Shown here: positions 18,350-48,636 of the stretch, piece by piece
How the letters are laid out: the number at the start of each line of letters is the position of its first letter
Numbering within the stretch: the first letter of the stretch is position 1
Assembly: GCF_014931565.1 (NCBI RefSeq)
Contig: NZ_CP063353.1
Location: 1,922,001-1,986,000, forward strand
Length of the DNA: 64,000 nt
Direction of reading: 5' to 3'
DNA from: Clostridium sp. 'deep sea'
GTDB taxonomy: Bacteria; Bacillota; UBA994; PWPR01
Notes under the pieces: model-generated
The model's database searches: none
Seen by the model: the letters and a program-made list of their open reading frames with translations, nothing else
What the model was told of the DNA's origin: nothing
Position numbers and translations under genes: made by a program

Positions 18350-20023
18350 CTAATTTTCTTTTGAAACTATTTTACCACTAAAAATCTCTATTGCAGTTTG
18401 CACAATATCGACTTTAGGTTTTTCAACTACTTCATTCTTTTTTGGTTTTGAAGCCTTTTGCAAAACACCTTTAATATTTACTTTATCGCCTAAAACTGAT
18501 TCAAGAACAGTTTCTATTATGTTTTTCTTTAAACTGCTTGTGACCTGATCTTTATGAAAATCATCACTAAACTGCAATACTAAATTCATGTTCTCAAATT
18601 GTAATGGTTTTGCGTTTTTAAGTAAAGCATTTGTTATAACATCTTGCTCTTTAACCTTTGCTAAAATATCATTCCAATTGCGCTCAATTGAAGATAGTGA
18701 TATCTGTGACTTAGTTTGTTTAATTGGTTCATAACTCTTACTAACTAGTGGCTCAGCTATAACGGCTTGCTCATTTGCAGTTTCATTTTTTACTACCTGC
18801 TGTTCAATTTCTTTTTTAAAGTCACTATAACTAATATTATTAACTTGCTCTTCCTGTTTAGAAGTACTTACACTAACTATTTCACCATTTCGAGTTTGTT
18901 TTTCTAACACAGTAACACGAGCAGCTAACTCTGTAAGAGAAAATCCTGTTATATACTGGCTCTCTAAAATAGCTAATTCAACTACTAAACGCTGATTTTT
19001 GGCATACTTTATGTCATTCACAGCTTTTACTATTGAGTGTATGAGTACATACAAATGATCTCTTGAAATATCTTTAGCCTGTTTATTAACTAGTGAAATA
19101 TCCTCTAGAACTATTTCATTATTATTTATACCCACCTGTAGCTCTAATAAACTACGTAAGTAGTGTAAATAGTCTACTAAAAACTGCTCTAAGCTATGGC
19201 CTTGATCATAAACTTTAGCTACTTGCTCTAAAGCATTCACTACATTGTTGGAAATAATACTTTCTGTTATTAGATAAAAGGCTTTATCGTCTACTGCACC
19301 TAATAAATCCATAACTATTTTAAGGTTAATATTGTTTTCACTATATGCTAAACATTGATCTAAAATACTTATGGCATCACGCATAGCACCATCAGACGCA
19401 CGTGTTATTAAATCAAGGGCTTCTTTAGATATTGTAGCTCCTAAGTCAGTTGCTACTTGCTGTATATGGCTTTTGATAAAATCCTTATTTATTCTATGAA
19501 AATCAAAGCGTTGACAACGTGATTTTATGGTTGCAGGTATTTTATGAGCTTCGGTTGTAGCTAATATAAAAATAACATGAGCTGGTGGCTCTTCGAGGGT
19601 TTTAAGTAAAGCGTTAAAGGCGGCAGTAGATAACATATGTACCTCATCTATAATATAAACCTTGTATCTACAATTAGCTGGGGCATACTTAACCTTTTCA
19701 CGTAAATCCCTTATTTCGTCAACTCCATTATTGGAGGCAGCATCTATTTCTATTACATCGAGTGAGCGGCTTTCTAATATGTTTTTACAAACCAAACACT
19801 CATTGCAGGGTACTATAACTTCTTGATGCAAACAATTTATGGCCCTTGCTAAAATACGAGCAGTACTTGTTTTACCAACTCCACGAGGTCCAGCAAATAA
19901 ATAAGCATGAGCTATGAAGTTATTTTTTACAGCATTACTTAAGGTTTTAGTAATATGTGCTTGTCCTAACACATCTTCAAATTTTAATGGTCGTAATTGC
20001 CTATACAAGGCCTGATATCCCAT
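18350..20023 (-). CDS. dnaX: DNA polymerase III subunit gamma/tau
   Basis: The product has 557 residues; the start is supported by TAGGAGG. The N-terminal AAA+ domain contains Walker A (GPRGVGKTS), a zinc-type cluster ending CNECLVC, and Walker B with the DEVH box (VYIIDEVHML), followed by sensor 1 (ILATTEAHKIPATIKSRCQRFDF). A clamp-loader collar and a Lys/Glu-rich tau-like C-terminal part follow. The protein drives sliding-clamp loading and links the clamp loader to the polymerase. It heads the dnaX-ybaB-recR-yaaL-bofA operon. I saw no 4.5S RNA gene or tadA upstream, unlike Bacillus. Confidence 0.97.
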   Translation of the reverse strand: MGYQALYRQLRPLKFEDVLGQAHITKTLSNAVKNNFIAHAYLFAGPRGVGKTSTARILARAINCLHQEVIVPCNECLVCKNILESRSLDVIEIDAASNNGVDEIRDLREKVKYAPANCRYKVYIIDEVHMLSTAAFNALLKTLEEPPAHVIFILATTEAHKIPATIKSRCQRFDFHRINKDFIKSHIQQVATDLGATISKEALDLITRASDGAMRDAISILDQCLAYSENNINLKIVMDLLGAVDDKAFYLITESIISNNVVNALEQVAKVYDQGHSLEQFLVDYLHYLRSLLELQVGINNNEIVLEDISLVNKQAKDISRDHLYVLIHSIVKAVNDIKYAKNQRLVVELAILESQYITGFSLTELAARVTVLEKQTRNGEIVSVSTSKQEEQVNNISYSDFKKEIEQQVVKNETANEQAVIAEPLVSKSYEPIKQTKSQISLSSIERNWNDILAKVKEQDVITNALLKNAKPLQFENMNLVLQFSDDFHKDQVTSSLKKNIIETVLESVLGDKVNIKGVLQKASKPKKNEVVEKPKVDIVQTAIEIFSGKIVSKEN

Positions 20024-20310
20024 AGCTGTTCCTCCTATTAATATAACTTAAATAAGCCAAGATTTAATGTTACTACAGCTTAGCCTTATTTTAAACTAAT
20101 TATTTTGATTACTTTAATATTATAACAAAAAAACAGGTGTTTTGTTAGCTGTGTTAGAGAGTAGCTATTATTTAATGGAAGTGTTTTATTAATTTATATT
20201 TTATTAATTGATAAAAAATTTAATTATGCTAATAAATAAAATACTAATTAAGTAAAAAGCTAGGTATGCCTTGTTATGATAAGCAAATAGGAGCTATAGC
20301 ACTAAATCTA
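20024..20310. other. Gene-free interval upstream of dnaX
   Basis: AT-rich sequence with no recognised gene or RNA. It probably holds the dnaX promoter, but no convincing pair of boxes was found. Confidence 0.25.
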
Positions 20311-20882
20311 TAAAGAGAAGCCCTAATCAAACGAATATAAACATATATAAGACTAGAGATGAAGGTGCTGAGGCGTAAGAATTATCATAAACCTGCCACA
20401 CCTTCTTTTACCTTAGTGCACTTGGTGATTTCTAAAACAAAAATATTTGCCTTAAGCTTGATTTTAAATCCTCAAATATTTTTGATACATAAATTTTACT
20501 CTCCCTTAATTAAAATATTCTATACACTAAGTGCACAAAGGGGCACAAAGAGGTATCCTAATTTAACATAATTGGTGATTTAAGCATGAGACTATACAAT
20601 AATATTTAAAAATTTAATTAAATATAAAAAAAGCTTAGTTGTAAGGATTATTCTTATAACTGGATCATTAAAGTCTTTACTCATCTACAAAAAAATGTTT
20701 TGATGAAGCAATTAAGTTTAGTAAATTACGATTACTAGTTTATCGTTAAAGTTTAAGACTATTTTTGACTTTTAAAATTTTTTATCTATAAGTTATTAAT
20801 GTTTATAAGAAAACACAGTCATTTTTTATTGTAAATAGGCGCCTACATTAGTTTTTTTTATTTCTACTAATGCAACAGCCCC
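20311..20882 (-). repeat. Interspersed repeat, long copy A (about 570 bp)
   Basis: The reverse complement of this stretch matches 35218-35583 in several blocks in the same order. One end carries a hairpin starting GGGGCTGTTGCATTAG. Next come a block with TGACTGTGTTTTCTTATAA and one with ATTTGAGGATTTAAAATCAA. The other end carries a block with the 17-mer GATGAAGGTGCTGAGGC (20358-20374 on the plus strand) and a final AGGGCTTCTCTTTATA. Copy B lacks roughly 200 bases from the middle. No frame of useful length is conserved between copies, so it is probably a non-autonomous mobile element or a structured intergenic repeat. Confidence 0.7.
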
Positions 20883-20947
20883 ACTACGTTTATAATAAAA
20901 TACAATTTAAATTTTCTGTTTAATTATTTACCTTAAGTATAAATTTT

Positions 20948-21970
20948 TTATTTAGTTAAAGCATTTTTTATAGCTTTTACTACACTCCAAGCCCCATTAG
21001 TAGTATTACTAATTACCGAAAACTCTAAATCACGCTCCCTTATTACACCCGATTGAAAAGATACCCCTGCATCGCAACCCATTATATACTCTAGCTGACA
21101 ACTAGGGTAATTATAAAGCCACATACCATAACCATAGTAGCGGTTTTCAGTATCTTTAGCATGCTTTTTACAGTATTCGGCTGTTAGTTTAGGCGATAGT
21201 ATTTCATTATTAAAAAGGGCCTGCCAGAGCTTTGTGAGATCATTTACGCAGGTAAAAGCTCCCCCATCCCCTGCTCCTACTATCGGCAGATTGTATATAT
21301 TGGTATACCAGCCAGTATCCGTATCCACATAGCCATAGGCTGTGTTTTTTGGTAAACAGTTTAAGGGGTAAAAACCAGTTGAATTCATGTTATTTTTTTT
21401 AAACAATTGATTTGTTACAAACTCACTATAGCTTATTCCTGAGATTTTAGCTATTACAGCAGCTAATAACACATAACCGCCATTGTTATAAGAAAACTTT
21501 TCTCCAGGCTTAGACTTCATATCTCTATGTGGAAAAACCTCGAAATAATGATAAGGCTCTTTTAGTTCATGCCAAGGAATAGCTAGTTTAAAGTTATCAA
21601 AGTCTTCAATTAGCTCTTCATCAAAATAGTCTGGTAAACCAGATGTATGAGACAACAGTTGAGCTATTGTTACATTTTTATTATAATTGGGAAACTTATC
21701 TCTTATTTTTATAATATCAAAAACCTGAGAGTTTAAGTTTAACTTGCCCCTATCTATTAACAAACCGATAGCTAAAGCCGTAAATAATTTTGTACCCGAT
21801 GCAATACCAAAACGGGTATTAATATTAATGGGCAATTCGTTACTCCTATCAGCAAAACCCTTTACATGTGAATATATAATTTCTCCTTTATGTAATACTT
21901 GAGCCACCCCTGAAAAGTTTGTTTCTGTAATAATTTCATTTATTTCAGCTTTATTTAAATACCTAGTCAA
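20948..21970 (-). CDS. Serine hydrolase of the beta-lactamase / penicillin-binding-protein fold
   Basis: I place the start at TTG 21968-21970 (340 residues), 5 bases past AGAGGTGA; the GTG at 21977-21979 is part of that site. The SxxK motif (ASGTKLFTALAIG) and the YxN motif (YNNGGYVLLAAVI) are present, with the surrounding LLSHTSGLPDYF, which defines the class C beta-lactamase-related (AmpC/EstB/D-aminopeptidase) hydrolases. There is no signal peptide, so it acts in the cytoplasm or leaves by another route. The substrate is unknown; ester or D-amino-acid peptide cleavage is typical of the family. It is divergent from the sigY-like operon. Confidence 0.88.
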   Translation of the reverse strand: MTRYLNKAEINEIITETNFSGVAQVLHKGEIIYSHVKGFADRSNELPININTRFGIASGTKLFTALAIGLLIDRGKLNLNSQVFDIIKIRDKFPNYNKNVTIAQLLSHTSGLPDYFDEELIEDFDNFKLAIPWHELKEPYHYFEVFPHRDMKSKPGEKFSYNNGGYVLLAAVIAKISGISYSEFVTNQLFKKNNMNSTGFYPLNCLPKNTAYGYVDTDTGWYTNIYNLPIVGAGDGGAFTCVNDLTKLWQALFNNEILSPKLTAEYCKKHAKDTENRYYGYGMWLYNYPSCQLEYIMGCDAGVSFQSGVIRERDLEFSVISNTTNGAWSVVKAIKNALTK

Positions 21971-22065
21971 TATAATCACCTCTTATACTTAATTATAAAG
22001 AAGTTTTAAGTAGTTTACTAACTAATATATGTACAAAATTAATTAGGTAGTATTTTTGTTTTTAC

Positions 22066-22093
22066 TGAACTAATTTCTAATGTCATGCGTAAT
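22066..22093 (+). promoter_or_regulatory. ECF-sigma-type promoter of the sigY-like operon
   Basis: TGAACT (22066-22071) and CGTAAT (22088-22093) are separated by 16 bases. A -35 box with a GAAC or GAAAC core and a -10 box starting CGT are the hallmarks of promoters read by group IV (ECF) sigma factors. It lies 26 bases upstream of the first gene of an operon that encodes such a factor, which suggests autoregulation. Confidence 0.65.
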
Positions 22094-22118
22094 ACTTATA
22101 AAATAGGGAGGTAAAGAT

Positions 22119-22334
22119 ATGGGAAATACTATGGAGTTACTAAATTTATTATGGCCAATAATTGTTGTTCAATTAGCTATGCAGGTCTTTTGCTTAGTGA
22201 AATTGTTTAAAACTGGCAGTAGAAACCTCAGCAAATTATGGTGGACACTCATAATAATTATTTTAAGTATTTTAGGACCTGTTGTGTTTTTACTCTTTGG
22301 TATAAACAGAGGAGACAGCCATGATTTCAGTTAA
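22119..22334 (+). CDS. PLDc_N-domain membrane protein (YxlE-like)
   Basis: The product has 71 residues, starting behind GGGAGG. Two hydrophobic helices (LLWPIIVVQLAMQVFCLV and WWTLIIIILSILGPVVFLLFG) match the short phospholipase-D N-terminal membrane domain shared by Bacillus YxlD and YxlE. These small proteins act in the anti-sigma system of SigY, according to the Bacillus literature. It is the first gene of the operon and overlaps the ABC ATPase gene by 14 bases. Confidence 0.75.
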   Translation: MGNTMELLNLLWPIIVVQLAMQVFCLVKLFKTGSRNLSKLWWTLIIIILSILGPVVFLLFGINRGDSHDFS

Positions 22335-23244
22335 AAATTTATGTAAGTCTTATGGTCAACATCAAGTATTAAAGGGCTTAACTCTTAGCGTTAAAACCGA
22401 GCAGAATAAAGGAACTATTTATGGCTTTTTAGGGAAAAATGGCGCTGGCAAAACTACTACCATGAATATCTTAAATGGCTTAGCCAAATTCAATGCTGGT
22501 GAATGTTACGTACTAGGTACAAAGTTAACCGCCCACACTCGCCAACAGCTTAATAGTGTTGCTTATTTGCCTGAATCACCAGGATTATATCCTTACATGA
22601 CTGGTAAAGAGTACCTAGATTTTATAGGTTATTTAAAAACTAAAGATAAAACTGAGGTTAAAAAAAGAACCACTGAAATGTTAGAGCTTACATCTTTACA
22701 ACATGCTAAAAATAAACGTATTGGGGGTTATTCAAGAGGCATGAAGCAACGGATTGCTATGGCTGCAGCTATGTACCATAAACCTAAGCTTATATTTTTA
22801 GATGAACCGACATCGGCACTTGACCCTCAAGGAAGAAAAGATGTTTTAAAACTACTACAGCATTTAAGAGAAACAGGATGCTCAATATTTTTATCCACCC
22901 ATATCTTAAGTGATGTAGAAAAGGTCTGTGATACAATTGGCATTTTACACAATGGCAAGCTATTACTAGAAGAAAACATGCGTAGCCTAATGAAAAACCA
23001 AGTAAGTATAGCTTACACCATTACATTTAAAGATAAGATAACAAAAAACACTTTTAATACCATAAGTAACTACCCCTATGTTAAAGAGTTAAAAGTAACT
23101 GAAAATGAGCTAATTGTATGGCTAAAAGATAATGTAGCTAATATTTTATTAAAGAACTTAGGTAATATAGAACAAGAAATTGAGTCTTGTGCTAAAAGAA
23201 AGCCTAATCTGGAGGATATTTTTATTAACACCTTAAGTAAATAA
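22321..23244 (+). CDS. ABC transporter ATP-binding protein (YxlF-like)
   Basis: The product has 307 residues, starting behind GAGGAG. Walker A (GKNGAGKTT), Q-loop region (AYLPESPGLYPYMTG), ABC signature (YSRGMKQR) and Walker B (LIFLDEPTSALDP) are all present, followed by a C-terminal extension typical of ABC-2 drug and antibiotic exporters. It pairs with the permease gene 22 bases downstream. In Bacillus the sigY operon encodes the equivalent YxlF/YxlG pair, whose substrate is unknown; resistance to a toxic peptide or drug is a reasonable guess. Confidence 0.92.
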   Translation: MISVKNLCKSYGQHQVLKGLTLSVKTEQNKGTIYGFLGKNGAGKTTTMNILNGLAKFNAGECYVLGTKLTAHTRQQLNSVAYLPESPGLYPYMTGKEYLDFIGYLKTKDKTEVKKRTTEMLELTSLQHAKNKRIGGYSRGMKQRIAMAAAMYHKPKLIFLDEPTSALDPQGRKDVLKLLQHLRETGCSIFLSTHILSDVEKVCDTIGILHNGKLLLEENMRSLMKNQVSIAYTITFKDKITKNTFNTISNYPYVKELKVTENELIVWLKDNVANILLKNLGNIEQEIESCAKRKPNLEDIFINTLSK

Positions 23245-23266
23245 GGTATAGAGAAAGGACTTAACT

Positions 23267-24025
23267 ATGGTTAGCATATTTAAAAAGGAAATAATAGAGG
23301 CAATAAGAAGCTATCGGTTTTTAGTTATTTTATTTGGGATAGCGTTATTCGCCTTACTAGACCCCATAATGTTAAAGCTACTACCAAAAATAATGCAGAG
23401 TCAATTTGAGGGTTTAGATATAAGTCAATTAATAAGCTTAAATCAACCCAATGCTGCCTTAAATTATTATAAAAACTTACAGCAAATTGGCAGTATTATT
23501 ATTTGCTTTGCTTTAATGAAGATTATTGCAGGAGAACTAAAAGAGAAAACTGCTATTATTCCTTATTGTAATAGTTTGAGCTTCAGCAAAATGGTTTTTG
23601 CTAAGTTTACTGTTTACACCTTGTACTTATTATCAGCAGTTGTGCTTAGCTCTATTATTAATTACTTATATGCCAGTACTTTATTTAGTGGTGAACGTTT
23701 TTCTTTTATCGCCTCTGTAAAAAGTGGAGTGTTATTTGGCTTATATTTTTCATTTTTAGCAACCTGCTTAATGTTTTTTGGGGCTCTATTTAAAAAGCCC
23801 AATGTTGCTGCTTTATGTTCCGTTGTAATTGCTTTATTTACACCTGCCTTAGGTAGTTTGTTTAAGGTAGCTAGCTATTTACCAAGTGGACTTTTAGATG
23901 AGGCTCAGCTTTTAATACCTTATTTAACTACTAGCGGATTAAGCTCCTTAATAGTTACTATAGGGCTTAGTTTTAGCTTATTATTTTTAACTATTTTTAG
24001 ATTAAAAACTATAGATTTAAGTTAG
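23267..24025 (+). CDS. ABC-2 type permease (YxlG-like)
   Basis: The product has 252 residues, starting behind AAAGGAC. About six membrane segments are predicted, preceded by an amphipathic N-terminus (FKKEIIEAIRSYRFL) that matches the coupling helix of ABC-2 permeases. It should form a transporter with the preceding ATPase. Position and size match YxlG of the Bacillus sigY operon. The export substrate cannot be read from sequence. Confidence 0.87.
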   Translation: MVSIFKKEIIEAIRSYRFLVILFGIALFALLDPIMLKLLPKIMQSQFEGLDISQLISLNQPNAALNYYKNLQQIGSIIICFALMKIIAGELKEKTAIIPYCNSLSFSKMVFAKFTVYTLYLLSAVVLSSIINYLYASTLFSGERFSFIASVKSGVLFGLYFSFLATCLMFFGALFKKPNVAALCSVVIALFTPALGSLFKVASYLPSGLLDEAQLLIPYLTTSGLSSLIVTIGLSFSLLFLTIFRLKTIDLS

Positions 24026-24034
24026 GAGAAAGTC

Positions 24035-24961
24035 ATGAAACACATTTATCTTACTGTAATAATAGTTATTGTAACTATTATTGCAGTTATTAGCGTAAAT
24101 AACCTTGGGGATATTAAGGTAAAGGTTAACGATGGGGTACTAAAAGCAAGCCTTAATAGAGCAGGAAAAGACCACAAAACCATCGTAGTAATGATAGCAG
24201 GCTCTGGTCCTACTGATAGAAATGGTAACTCAAGCCTTATAAAAGGTAGGAACGATAGCCTATTGCAATTAGCTAAAGCCTTAAATAAACAAGGCATAGA
24301 CACCTTTAGATACGACAAACGTAGTGCTGGCAAAAGCTTTAAGAGCTTTAAAGATATTCAAAACACAAATTTTGACGATTTTGTAAACGATGCCATAGCT
24401 TGTATCAACTTATTAAAAAACAAAGGTTATAATAGAATATATGTAGCTGGTCATAGCCAAGGTAGCTTAATAGCAATGTTAACTACTAAAAGTGGCCTTG
24501 TAAATGGTGTAATATCTATTGCAGGACCTGCTCACAACGTATATTATGGCTTAAAAGAGCAACTTTCTGCTAATAATCAATATGAGAGTGTAAAGTATAT
24601 AATTGAAGAATTAAAACAAGGTAAGATAGTTAAAAACGTAAAAGAGCAAGATAAGCTTTCATTTTCTATTGCTAATCAAAAATTTTTAATAAGTTGGATG
24701 AAATATAACCCTCTTAGGATAGCTAAAGACTTAAAAGTGCCCATTATTTTTTTAAATGGAGATATGGATATCCAAGTTCCTATAGCTGATCTAAAGATTT
24801 TTCAACAAGCCCTGCCACAATCAAAATGTATAACGCTTAAAAATACAAACCATGTTTTAAAGGTTGTAACAAATGAAAAACAAAACGTAGAGTCTTATAG
24901 CAAGGCATATTATATGTTAAATGAAACACTAATTAAAGAGATAACCTCATTTGTAAAATAG
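24035..24961 (+). CDS. Membrane-anchored alpha/beta hydrolase
   Basis: The product has 308 residues, starting behind TTAGGAG. An N-terminal hydrophobic segment (about residues 4-22) anchors it outside the membrane. The hydrolase core has the oxyanion-side motif GSGPTDRNGN, the nucleophile elbow GHSQGS (Ser), an acid in NGDMDIQVP and the catalytic His in NTNHVLK. The pattern is that of the YqiA/dienelactone-like serine esterases. The gene lies inside a sigY-like operon that lacks it in Bacillus, so an esterase acting at the envelope may be part of the same response. The substrate is unknown. Confidence 0.85.
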   Translation: MKHIYLTVIIVIVTIIAVISVNNLGDIKVKVNDGVLKASLNRAGKDHKTIVVMIAGSGPTDRNGNSSLIKGRNDSLLQLAKALNKQGIDTFRYDKRSAGKSFKSFKDIQNTNFDDFVNDAIACINLLKNKGYNRIYVAGHSQGSLIAMLTTKSGLVNGVISIAGPAHNVYYGLKEQLSANNQYESVKYIIEELKQGKIVKNVKEQDKLSFSIANQKFLISWMKYNPLRIAKDLKVPIIFLNGDMDIQVPIADLKIFQQALPQSKCITLKNTNHVLKVVTNEKQNVESYSKAYYMLNETLIKEITSFVK

Positions 24962-24980
24962 GCTTAAAGGGGTGCAGTAA

Positions 24981-25541
24981 TTGCAAAATAGTTTAGCTGA
25001 AAAAAATTTAATTAATGAAGCATTAGCAGGTAATCTTGAGTCTTTAGCACAATTACTTCACCTTAATTATAATAAGGTATATGGCTATTTAGTTAAGCTT
25101 ACCTTAAATAAAGAGCTGGCTTTAGATTTAGCGCAGGAGTCTATGACTAAGGCTATTGAGAAACTTGAACAATATAATAACTGCAAAGCTTCGTTTTCTA
25201 CTTGGCTTATTCAAATTGCCATTAATACTAGTAGAGATTGGTATCGAAAAGAGAAACGAAAAAAAGAGTTTTATGATAACCTGCTAAATCAGAGTTTAAA
25301 TGGTCTACCATTATCTAGCTTGAACAATAACACTAATATTGGTTATGATAGAGAAGAGATTTTAGATACCTTAATGGTACTAAAAAACATTCCTGCCAAA
25401 ATTAGAATACCAGTTATTCTTAAGTATTATTACGGATATGAACAGAGTGAAATTGCTAAGTTTTTAAAGATACCTAAAGGCACAGTAAAATCAAGAATAA
25501 GTAATGGACTAAAACGAATTAGGAAGGAGTTGCAAAGATGA
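24981..25541 (+). CDS. ECF-type RNA polymerase sigma factor (SigY-like)
   Basis: The product has 186 residues from a TTG start behind AAAGGGG. Region 2 (NKELALDLAQESMTKAIEKLEQY ... FSTWLIQIAINTSRDWYRKEKR) and region 4 (YYGYEQSEIAKFLKIPKGTVKSRISNGLKRI) are typical of group IV sigma factors. The downstream genes match YxlC and YxlD, and the upstream genes match YxlE, YxlF and YxlG, so SigY is the best assignment. An ECF-type promoter before the operon suggests that it drives its own transcription. The trigger is unknown; SigY in Bacillus responds to nitrogen starvation and some stresses. Confidence 0.88.
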   Translation: MQNSLAEKNLINEALAGNLESLAQLLHLNYNKVYGYLVKLTLNKELALDLAQESMTKAIEKLEQYNNCKASFSTWLIQIAINTSRDWYRKEKRKKEFYDNLLNQSLNGLPLSSLNNNTNIGYDREEILDTLMVLKNIPAKIRIPVILKYYYGYEQSEIAKFLKIPKGTVKSRISNGLKRIRKELQR

Positions 25542-25855
25542 AAAAAGATATTGATAAAAAATACAAAGCTGAAATAGAGTCTGTAAAGAAAACTCTTAAC
25601 TCTGTAAATGAACAACCTGAAAATGCTCCTTCTTTAGCTGAAATACGTAAATTAGTTCGTTCTGAGGTAGCTAAAAAAGAGCAAAAACAGCAAAAGGCTT
25701 TTTACTGCTTTGCAACAGGAGCATTTGTTACAGTTTCTGTTTTAATTGCTTTTATTATAAAAGATCCTTCTTTGTTTATTAAAATTCAATTATGTTCTTT
25801 TATAGCCATACCAGTAGCAGTCTTTAAGTTTGGTAAAAAGGTAGGTACAAATTAA
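25538..25855 (+). CDS. YxlC-like DUF5345 membrane protein, likely anti-sigma factor
   Basis: The product has 105 residues and overlaps the sigma gene by 4 bases (ATGA type), starting behind AAGGAG. The N-terminal half is charged and helical (KKYKAEIESVKKTLNSV ... SLAEIRKLVRSEVAKKEQKQQKA), suited to binding a sigma factor. Two membrane helices follow. Size, topology and place directly behind the sigma gene match Bacillus YxlC, the negative regulator of SigY. The binding region should be the cytoplasmic N-terminus. Confidence 0.75.
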   Translation: MKKDIDKKYKAEIESVKKTLNSVNEQPENAPSLAEIRKLVRSEVAKKEQKQQKAFYCFATGAFVTVSVLIAFIIKDPSLFIKIQLCSFIAIPVAVFKFGKKVGTN

Positions 25856-26052
25856 TGCAAGAATTACGTGTTATACCTGTATGGGCCTGGTGTATAATTG
25901 CGGTTTTACTACTAACTCAAAGCATTTTACTGTTTAAAGATGCCCAAAAGGAGGGTGTTAATCCTTGGTTTTGGGGAATATGGGGATTAACAAATGTGCC
26001 TACGGTTGCAATTGTGTATTGGTTAGTAGTAAAAATGAAAAAAAAGAGATAG
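25855..26052 (+). CDS. YxlD-like small PLDc_N membrane protein
   Basis: The product has 65 residues; its ATG overlaps the previous stop codon by one base, so translation is coupled. It has two hydrophobic helices with a loop holding KDAQKEGVNPWFWGIWG, like the short YxlD/PLDc_N proteins. In Bacillus, YxlD works with YxlC to hold SigY in check. It is the last gene of the operon; its stop codon lies inside the terminator hairpin. Confidence 0.7.
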   Translation: MQELRVIPVWAWCIIAVLLLTQSILLFKDAQKEGVNPWFWGIWGLTNVPTVAIVYWLVVKMKKKR

Positions 26053-26069
26053 CCTAAGCTATCTTTTTT
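26041..26069. terminator. Bidirectional terminator of the sigY-like operon
   Basis: GATAGC and GCTATC close a short loop (CTAA), with A-runs on one side and six T on the other, so it can work in both directions. The stop codon of the last gene lies inside the stem. Confidence 0.8.
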
Positions 26070-26076
26070 GGTTTAG

Positions 26077-26155
26077 GTATGACTAGTAGTCATACGGTTT
26101 GGGCTACGCGGTGGGGGTTCGCTTAGCTCACGGAATGGGTATTCCCAAGGAATAC
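26077..26155. ncRNA. GC-rich three-hairpin element of unknown class
   Basis: Three hairpins stand in a row. The first is GTATGACT/AGTCATAC (26077-26095, 8 pairs). The second joins GGGCTACGCG (26101-26110) to CGCTTAGCTC (26120-26129), 10 positions with one mismatch around GTGGGGGTT. The third is GTATTCC/GGAATAC (26139-26155, loop CAA). The region is clearly richer in G and C than its neighbours and encodes no frame. It lies between two convergent genes just past a bidirectional terminator. It fits no riboswitch or RNA family that I can name. A minus-strand transcript reading out of the DUF421 gene would contain it. Confidence 0.4.
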
Positions 26156-26169
26156 GGAAAAAAATTTTA

Positions 26170-26880
26170 TTAAAACACAACGTATTCTTTTATGTTTTTA
26201 TTGTGGGAACTTATATATAAGTTCCCAGCTTTATCTACTGTGGCTAAAAATACGTCATCTATTGACTTTATATTACGCTTTTTCAGTTCATTAATTATCC
26301 ATTGCTCATTTATGTTGGCATTTTTTAAATGTTTATGCTGTAGTTTACCATCAATAATTAGGTTTACGCTTAAACCTCTATACTCAGGCTTGAGATTTAA
26401 ATCGCTATTGGTTACTATCTCTTTATGGGGTTTTAGCAAAAAACTAATATCTCCATTAGTCTCCACTACGGCATAGTCTATGTCATCAATATGAAACACG
26501 CCTTTAATTCGAAGTTGCTCTAATATTTCACTTACCATAAATTTAGATTTCCTAATATTCTTCTCTAGTAACTTACCATTTTGCACAACAACAATGGGGG
26601 AACCATCTAAAAAGGCTTTAATCTTTTCATTGGCCATGGCTAAATAGGCTAAAGACAAAGGAAATATAGACCAAATAACCAAACTGACTAATCCTGAGGC
26701 TAATTTAACATCTTTATTAATAGACATCTCTGAGGCAATAGAGCCTATAGAAATACCTATAACATAGTCAAAAAAGGTTATTTGAGATATTTGCTTTTTT
26801 CCATTTATCCGTGTAAGTATAAAAAGAACTGTAACAGAGAAAAAACTTCTCCATATTACTGTTAATAATTCTTTAGTCAT
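26170..26880 (-). CDS. DUF421 (YetF/YcaP-type) membrane protein
   Basis: The product has 236 residues, starting behind AAAGGGG. Three N-terminal membrane helices are followed by two small cytoplasmic domains. RINGKKQISQITFFDYVIGISIGSIAS is the signature of the DUF421 family (Bacillus YetF, YrbG, YkjA), as is the later GSPIVVVQNGKLLEKNIRKSKF. Members occur in spore-formers, and some are made during sporulation; the molecular role is not settled. It is monocistronic. Confidence 0.9.
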   Translation of the reverse strand: MTKELLTVIWRSFFSVTVLFILTRINGKKQISQITFFDYVIGISIGSIASEMSINKDVKLASGLVSLVIWSIFPLSLAYLAMANEKIKAFLDGSPIVVVQNGKLLEKNIRKSKFMVSEILEQLRIKGVFHIDDIDYAVVETNGDISFLLKPHKEIVTNSDLNLKPEYRGLSVNLIIDGKLQHKHLKNANINEQWIINELKKRNIKSIDDVFLATVDKAGNLYISSHNKNIKEYVVF

Positions 26881-48497: not shown

Positions 48498-48511
48498 ATA
48501 ACCTGAAATAA

Positions 48512-48610
48512 CTTATCTTTCATTTCTAACGAAATGCAGGATTTAGCACCACACTCTAAATGTAGGTTGCCGGGTTTCACAGGGCCAGTCCCTCCACCAC
48601 TCTTGATAAG
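48512..48610 (-). promoter_or_regulatory. SAM-I riboswitch (S-box) aptamer
   Basis: Read on the minus strand, the element shows all S-box landmarks in order: CTTATCAAGAG opening P1, GGTGGAGGGACTGGCCC, GTGAAACCCGGCAACC, GGTGCTAAATCCTGCA, and GATAAG closing P1. The downstream terminator completes a transcription-attenuating switch. When SAM is plentiful the methionine operon should be shut off. Confidence 0.97.
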
Positions 48611-48636
48611 GAAGATATTAATATTAAGTTTTCTGC

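Follow-up and report, generated by a model that had tools for sequence, protein, structure and literature searches.

The window, a stretch of 64,000 nucleotides from Clostridium sp. 'deep sea' (contig NZ_CP063353.1, positions 1,922,001 to 1,986,000), holds on its + strand seven open reading frames (ORFs), at 22119-26052 and in the order yxlE-yxlF-yxlG-hydrolase-sigY-yxlC-yxlD, that we read, with a probability of about 0.6, as a SigY-type envelope-stress operon of two modules, one for output and one for control. The kind is a known one, the self-switching SigY type of Bacillus, and the addition is a membrane-anchored hydrolase beside the exporter. In the output module, YxlE, YxlF and YxlG would constitute an ABC-2 exporter with a small PLDc_N partner, accompanied by a serine hydrolase whose catalytic domain probably lies outside, tethered by a single N-terminal helix. 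In the control module, the two-helix protein YxlC and YxlD would keep SigY inactive at the membrane until a signal, probably an envelope-active compound, frees it. The freed SigY would then transcribe the whole operon from a single extracytoplasmic function (ECF) promoter before yxlE, giving more exporter, hydrolase and SigY, and the compound itself, or a lipid produced by the damage, may then be removed and cleaved by exporter and hydrolase together. We consider it plausible that export is joined here with extracellular hydrolysis.

An earlier note on this DNA had named the seven genes and placed the sigma factor fifth, after the transporter, and this assignment was borne out by the ORFs, by Pfam and NCBIfam matches and, for the YxlD-like protein, which no Pfam family matched, by the YxlD profile (Table 1). 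The gaps between the genes are, in order, -14, 22, 9, 19, -4 and -1 bases. The sigma factor has the domains sigma2 and sigma4 (PF04542/PF08281) and is followed by YxlC (DUF5345) and YxlD, the composition of a SigY-YxlC-YxlD module; its best NCBIfam family is SigY (NF007216, 178.5 bits), with SigW next at 85.7 bits, in keeping with the SigY kinship proposed earlier. In the source genome (G000; 3.83 Mb, one contig) it is the sole SigY-level sigma factor (240.6 bits, the next of 7 matches scoring 110.9), and no DUF5345 match above the cut-off, nor any YxlG match at E 1e-12, lies outside the operon. YxlF scored best against the DrrA subfamily (TIGR01188, 198.6 bits), below that family's cut-off of 312, which places it outside the DrrA type and makes it assignable to the ABC exporter superfamily only. 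YxlG stays slightly under the cut-off of ABC2_membrane_2 (PF12679; 25.4 against 27.2 bits) and is 19-37% identical to the six other rows of its alignment (A3). For the hairpin that closes the operon the scanner gives a hit on the - strand alone, and shuffled sequence contains sites of this kind at least as often.

Table 1. Predicted elements of the operon and a second candidate SigY site (aa, amino acids; TM, transmembrane helices)
Feature	Position	Strand	Basis
SigY-type ECF promoter TGAACT-N16-CGTAAT	22066..22093	+	sequence; equivalent sites in SigY loci and in the sister genus (L280)
yxlE-like, PLDc_N small membrane protein, 71 aa, 2 TM	22119..22334	+	PF13396, 32.2 bits (cut-off 23.3); alignment A5
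yxlF-like ABC-2 exporter ATPase, 307 aa	22321..23244	+	PF00005 ABC_tran, 91.3 bits
yxlG-like ABC-2 permease, 252 aa, 6 TM (6 hydrophobic segments)	23267..24025	+	PF12679, 25.4 bits; alignment A3
Membrane-anchored alpha/beta hydrolase, 308 aa; GHSQG serine S141, D245, H273	24035..24961	+	PF12146
sigY-like ECF sigma factor, 186 aa, TTG start	24981..25541	+	NF007216, 178.5 bits; sigma-70 r2/r4
yxlC-like (DUF5345) anti-sigma candidate, 105 aa, 2 TM, without zinc motif	25538..25855	+	PF17280, 40.1 bits (cut-off 27)
yxlD-like small membrane protein, 65 aa	25855..26052	+	yxlD profile
Hairpin AGATAGC-CTAA-GCTATCT and T tract, likely terminator, usable on both strands	26047..26069	+	sequence
Second SigY-like site and 212-aa gene	L139:1552-2190 (G000:C1:157744-158430)		sequence

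Hydrolase, exporter and the SigY core

The hydrolase matches Hydrolase_4 (PF12146, 50.1 bits) and Abhydrolase_1 (38.1 bits), and its GHSQG, GDMD and NH motifs, which hold the three catalytic residues, are invariant among the aligned homologues (A2, A4). The membrane anchor claimed for it earlier was recovered as a single predicted hydrophobic N-terminal helix (residues 3-21; helix 2-23 in the structure model), inspection by eye found no lipobox, and the topology suggests an N-in/C-out protein with the catalytic domain outside the membrane. The proteins of solved structure that its profile matches are cinnamoyl/feruloyl esterases, lipases and monoglyceride lipases, the fold search agrees, and the EstD esterase family (NF041096) gave 122.4 bits against a cut-off of 600, which leaves the protein outside that family; these generic matches point to an esterase or lipase type and hold no closer clue to the substrate. 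Such relatives would also suit a role in housekeeping of the cell's own envelope, with the hydrolase cleaving lipids or acyl groups and YxlEFG acting partly as a sensor rather than as a toxin exporter. In B. subtilis, the annotation of YxlE (in the excerpted text of PMC4326333) is that of a negative sigma-Y regulator, and ethanol stress induces the sigma-Y genes (in the portion available of PMC3498285), as that explanation would have it, but the nearest exporter subfamilies, all below their cut-offs, include drug and lantibiotic protection ATPases, and we regard housekeeping as a possible, if doubtful, account.

We surveyed one genome collection for SigY loci with a 12-row sigma-factor alignment, keeping the best 80 of 371 confirmed loci and adding 11; 10 of these 11 were picked via DUF5345, and the independent count is 80. 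Four contigs, identified by their equal length, are present twice among the 91 loci (L017/L028, L020/L062, L022/L095 and L027/L074), and yxlC, yxlD, yxlE, yxlF, yxlG and the hydrolase were located by profiles built in this analysis. Both yxlC and yxlD adjoin sigY in 91/91 loci, 80 of them found by the sigma factor alone, whereas yxlF lies nearby in 68, yxlG in 44 and yxlE in 43; the sigY-yxlC-yxlD trio is thus a fixed core and the exporter is variable. This, together with a PF17280 score over the cut-off, upholds the pairing of YxlC- and YxlD-like proteins with SigY. Where a SigY locus bears an exporter, the sigma factor mostly stands first, an order that we take as typical of the module and not as defining it, and in five further distinct loci (L018, L027/L074, L032, L055 and L071) exporter genes are followed by sigY-yxlC-yxlD, so that the transporter-first layout of the window is a second recurring design. 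We also tried the hydrolase as a general partner of SigY and rejected it: its profile matched only L017/L028, one contig present twice, and L052, where the protein is 27% identical and lacks the N-terminal anchor. In that locus, from Tumebacillus avium (L052:7017-7964), the unanchored alpha/beta hydrolase overlaps the end of sigY-yxlC-yxlD, and there is no yxlEFG.

Of 398 genomes, 31 contain homologues of the hydrolase at E 1e-15. Among 10 regions around such homologues, two hold yxlEFG (L155 in genome G173 and L156 in G311, both outside the family of the window), and each has yxlE-yxlF-yxlG-hydrolase in the order of the window, the hydrolase being 43% and 40% identical, respectively. Contrary to what the earlier note had supposed, the hydrolase is therefore not new to the exporter module, since the cassette occurs without SigY in two unrelated genomes: the sigma profile matched nothing in G173 at E 1e-10, and the best match in G311, 94.9 bits, is not at SigY level (241-250 bits for G000 and for G002, a genome of a sister genus in the same family). 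The search for the full gene set recovered the same order in G002, and in L155 and L156 it found the yxlEFG-hydrolase part alone. Immediately upstream of the L156 cassette stand a HisKA_3 kinase and a LuxR-type response regulator, a NarL-type two-component system; the G173 contig ends 191 bases ahead of yxlE, and the region upstream falls outside it. Directly 3' of the G173 cassette hydrolase lies a PF00144 gene (L155:5373-6869, 204.8 bits), a family also found beside the operon in the window, with two cases only. Surveys by order and class (5 and 10 genomes) found no cassette beyond those of the query genomes. YxlG matches at E 1e-12 were present in 65 of the 398 genomes; 40 further exporter regions together with L155 and L156 gave 42 loci, in which sigY adjoins the exporter in 8 (L196, L197, L198, L199, L205, L206, L212 and L233), a NarL-type pair lies upstream in 3 (L156, L200 and L201) and the hydrolase accompanies it in 2. 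By eye, an XRE-type regulator with a long C-terminal part precedes yxlE-yxlF-yxlG in L216, L217, L223, L226, L228, L230 and L231.

In a FastTree phylogeny of concatenated YxlF and YxlG (84 loci, 557 columns), the window is nested among clostridial exporters and forms a clade with L155, L156, L200 and L201 (support 0.997). The sigma-factor tree (96 rows) places the window and L017 with 75 other rows, including Bacilli, against 19 mostly clostridial rows (UFBoot 100; FastTree 0.896), and the two trees disagree, for example, on the window, L026, L102 and L029. Separate histories of the exporter-hydrolase and sigma modules would account for this, on moderate evidence that is not proof; long branches could also give such a conflict. 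An operon of Bacillus order that was permuted within this lineage and received a hydrolase, in essence the rearrangement put forward in the earlier note, would explain why the gene content is the Bacillus set plus one and why the sigma-first order prevails among exporter-bearing loci. The SigY-type gene set stood, but transporter-first order recurs in five loci, the cassette exists without sigY in G173 and G311, the window's YxlFG groups with theirs, and the sigma tree leans to the Bacilli side and the YxlFG tree to the clostridial one, which at such depth is again moderate evidence; we think a permutation unlikely. Because the cassette occurs without SigY and the window's exporter groups there, the operon looks rather like two joined modules, a yxlEFG-hydrolase cassette and sigY-yxlC-yxlD.

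Promoter and autoregulation

The predicted promoter has its hexamers at 22066-22071 and 22088-22093, separated by a 16-base spacer, and lies 25 bases ahead of the yxlE start. To place it among SigY loci, the region from 300 bases upstream of the first gene, or 60 inside it, was scanned in 87 loci, made up of the window and 86 others that remained once the four duplicates had been removed together with L017, a locus on a contig that begins inside yxlG. TGAAC-N15-18-CGT was present before the first gene in 84 of the 87, where first-order Markov resamplings of the same stretches gave 0.95 on average and 4 at most; of the misses, the site of L027 falls within an over-called start, L040 shows the variant CGAAC and L076 has none. 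In each of the five other transporter-first loci the 2.6 kb preceding sigY contain a single site, which lies ahead of the exporter at -1798 to -1830, and the window has its sole site in the scanned stretch at -2915 from sigY. The promoter thus moves together with the operon, standing ahead of the exporter when the exporter precedes sigY, and in the sister genus TGAACG-N16-CGTATA (L280, G002) stands ahead of yxlE. Since the site is conserved before the first gene, is the sole one in transporter-first loci and recurs in the sister genus, autoregulation from the predicted ECF site, the logic that the earlier note had read into it, is well supported at the level of sequence. A promoter that travels with its exporter is also a ready reporter.

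We take the match as real because its position is conserved among SigY loci, the motif by itself being not rare; that it arose by chance and that a housekeeping promoter drives the operon is very improbable, for although short motifs recur and the pattern is not over-represented in the genome, the 84 loci far exceed the resampled mean, the sister genus has a site of like kind, and the region has 16 housekeeping-type matches, where shuffles average 18.9, with none before yxlE. Further TGAAC-16-CGTA sites, envisaged in the earlier note, came down to one candidate: among the 17 exact matches in the genome, just the operon site and G000:C1:157744 (TGAACT-N16-CGTATA) lie outside long ORFs and directly ahead of an ORF start. 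The latter stands 26 bases ahead of a 212-aa gene without a Pfam family over the cut-off. A 47% identical homologue of its product is encoded immediately before the SigY operon in L071, and G001, a genome of the same genus without a SigY-level sigma factor, has a homologue in conserved gene order without the promoter site. These observations are suggestive only of a second SigY target. The genome-wide regulon was dropped as a statistical argument.

Several results weigh against the operon being a SigY-type system that couples export with hydrolysis. The sigma factor does not reach the SigY equivalog cut-off of 194 bits, and neither the exact motif (17 matches against 25 for a reversed control) nor its stricter form (5 against 18) is enriched genome-wide. 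Nearly all SigY operons lack the hydrolase, which outside the window's own family was seen only in L052, where it is a different protein, and the hydrolase model, built from a 3-row alignment, has a mean pLDDT of 67.8, a modest confidence.

YxlC and class I anti-sigma factors

Among 95 proteins in the YxlC position, between sigY and yxlD, 10 carry Hx3Cx2C in their N-terminal part followed by two TM, compared with a background of 11 Hx3Cx2C occurrences in 1811 other ORFs of 90-220 aa. The YxlC of the window has no Hx3Cx2C and so lacks the zinc signature of a class I anti-sigma factor (ASDI). A profile of 86 motif-less YxlC proteins, the window's included, found 9 of the 10 motif-bearing ones (E 5e-12 to 6e-4), and 8 of 10 when 8 clostridial intermediates were removed; of the two-TM control ORFs, 2 of 74 scored, more weakly (13.7 and 12.1 bits with the first profile). 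An hhalign comparison gave a probability of 97.4%, and the profile comparisons indicate a homology to the zinc-motif members that covers the two TM and the part following the motif. In L085, matches to zf-HC2 (5-36) and DUF5345 (45-118) are adjacent, both weak and below the cut-off. None of the 10 zinc-motif proteins falls in the 77-row sigma clade that includes the window. A SigY trio at L199:2757-7712 has a zinc-motif anti-sigma candidate, a YxlD with extra CxxC pairs and two consecutive ABC exporters.

According to passages of PMC7406223, Hx3Cx2C covers helices 2-3 in the domains of class I anti-sigma factors, with sigma4 bound through helix 1 and sigma2 through helix 4, zinc and non-zinc forms are mixed within groups, and the motif is found in only about half of known ASDIs. 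Given these helix roles and the profile link to Hx3Cx2C homologues, YxlC resembles a class I anti-sigma factor that has been shortened and that would still bind a sigma domain, perhaps sigma2. Taken jointly, two further proposals are tentative: that yxlE-yxlF-yxlG-hydrolase is a portable export-and-cleave cassette rewired between SigY and a two-component switch, and that the SigY switch is run by an amputated zinc anti-sigma factor, YxlC, which may have lost its sigma4-binding and zinc parts and may hold SigY via the remaining sigma2-binding helix with the help of YxlD. The literature search found no paper with DUF5345, nor one with YxlC and a zinc anti-sigma term, which is no proof of unpublished status; a link of this family of 'unknown function' to class I anti-sigma factors would offer a testable anti-sigma mechanism.

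Chromosomal place and comparison with known systems

Upstream of the operon lie a divergent gene of the PF00144 beta-lactamase/serine hydrolase family (20948-21979, - strand) and an ORF at 18350-20023 that we take, by our own reading, to be dnaX. In G001, dnaX-like and YetF-like flanks share a contig, and their matches lie about 210 bases apart, as against about 6.2 kb in the window; 20024-26170 thus corresponds to a near-empty site in this congener (G001:C98, L281), with the operon and the PF00144 gene missing, and no sigY-level match was found in G001 (best 101.2 bits). G002, the metagenome-assembled genome Clostridia bacterium CSSed10_434R1, has the promoter, yxlE and yxlF beside dnaX and, on a second contig (L028), yxlG-hydrolase-sigY-yxlC-yxlD. 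Both genomes are drafts (completeness 94% for G001 and 72% for G002), and the simplest reading of these arrangements is that the block was present at the dnaX place in the family ancestor and was lost whole in G001. Elsewhere in the window, a SAM riboswitch lies at 48510-48612 (- strand, 87.3 bits).

In B. subtilis, YxlC is annotated as an anti-sigma factor and YxlD as an anti-sigma component, next to the YxlE annotation given above (excerpt of PMC4326333); SigY activity is raised under nitrogen deficiency (PMC7439481, in part), and the function of YxlF and YxlG is given as unknown (PMC11466899, in part). SigY is among the less understood ECF sigma factors, and a hydrolase tied to its exporter would be a directly assayable route to the compound class. 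No paper combining PLDc_N, an ABC transporter and a sigma factor was found in the literature searched, which again is no proof of unpublished status.

The order of the B. subtilis operon we take to be sigY-yxlC-yxlD-yxlE-yxlF-yxlG, and its promoter consensus is presumably TGAACG-16-CGTC. With it the window shares all genes bar the hydrolase, the TGAAC/CGT promoter boxes and the position of yxlC and yxlD 3' of sigY; it differs in having the sigma factor fifth, the promoter before the exporter and the hydrolase added, and in the YxlFG tree its exporter branch differs from the exporters of Bacilli. The five other transporter-first loci, one of which (L027/L074, a contig present twice) is from Hydrogenispora sp., share the exporter followed by sigY-yxlC-yxlD and the sole ECF site before the exporter but, unlike the window, have no yxlE and no hydrolase, and their permease is missed by the YxlG profile. 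The G173 and G311 cassettes share four genes and their order, and neither genome has a SigY-level sigma factor. G002/L028 shares with the window the gene order including the hydrolase, the kind of promoter and the dnaX neighbour, and differs in being split over two contigs and in having a 157-aa gene in place of the PF00144 gene between dnaX and yxlE.

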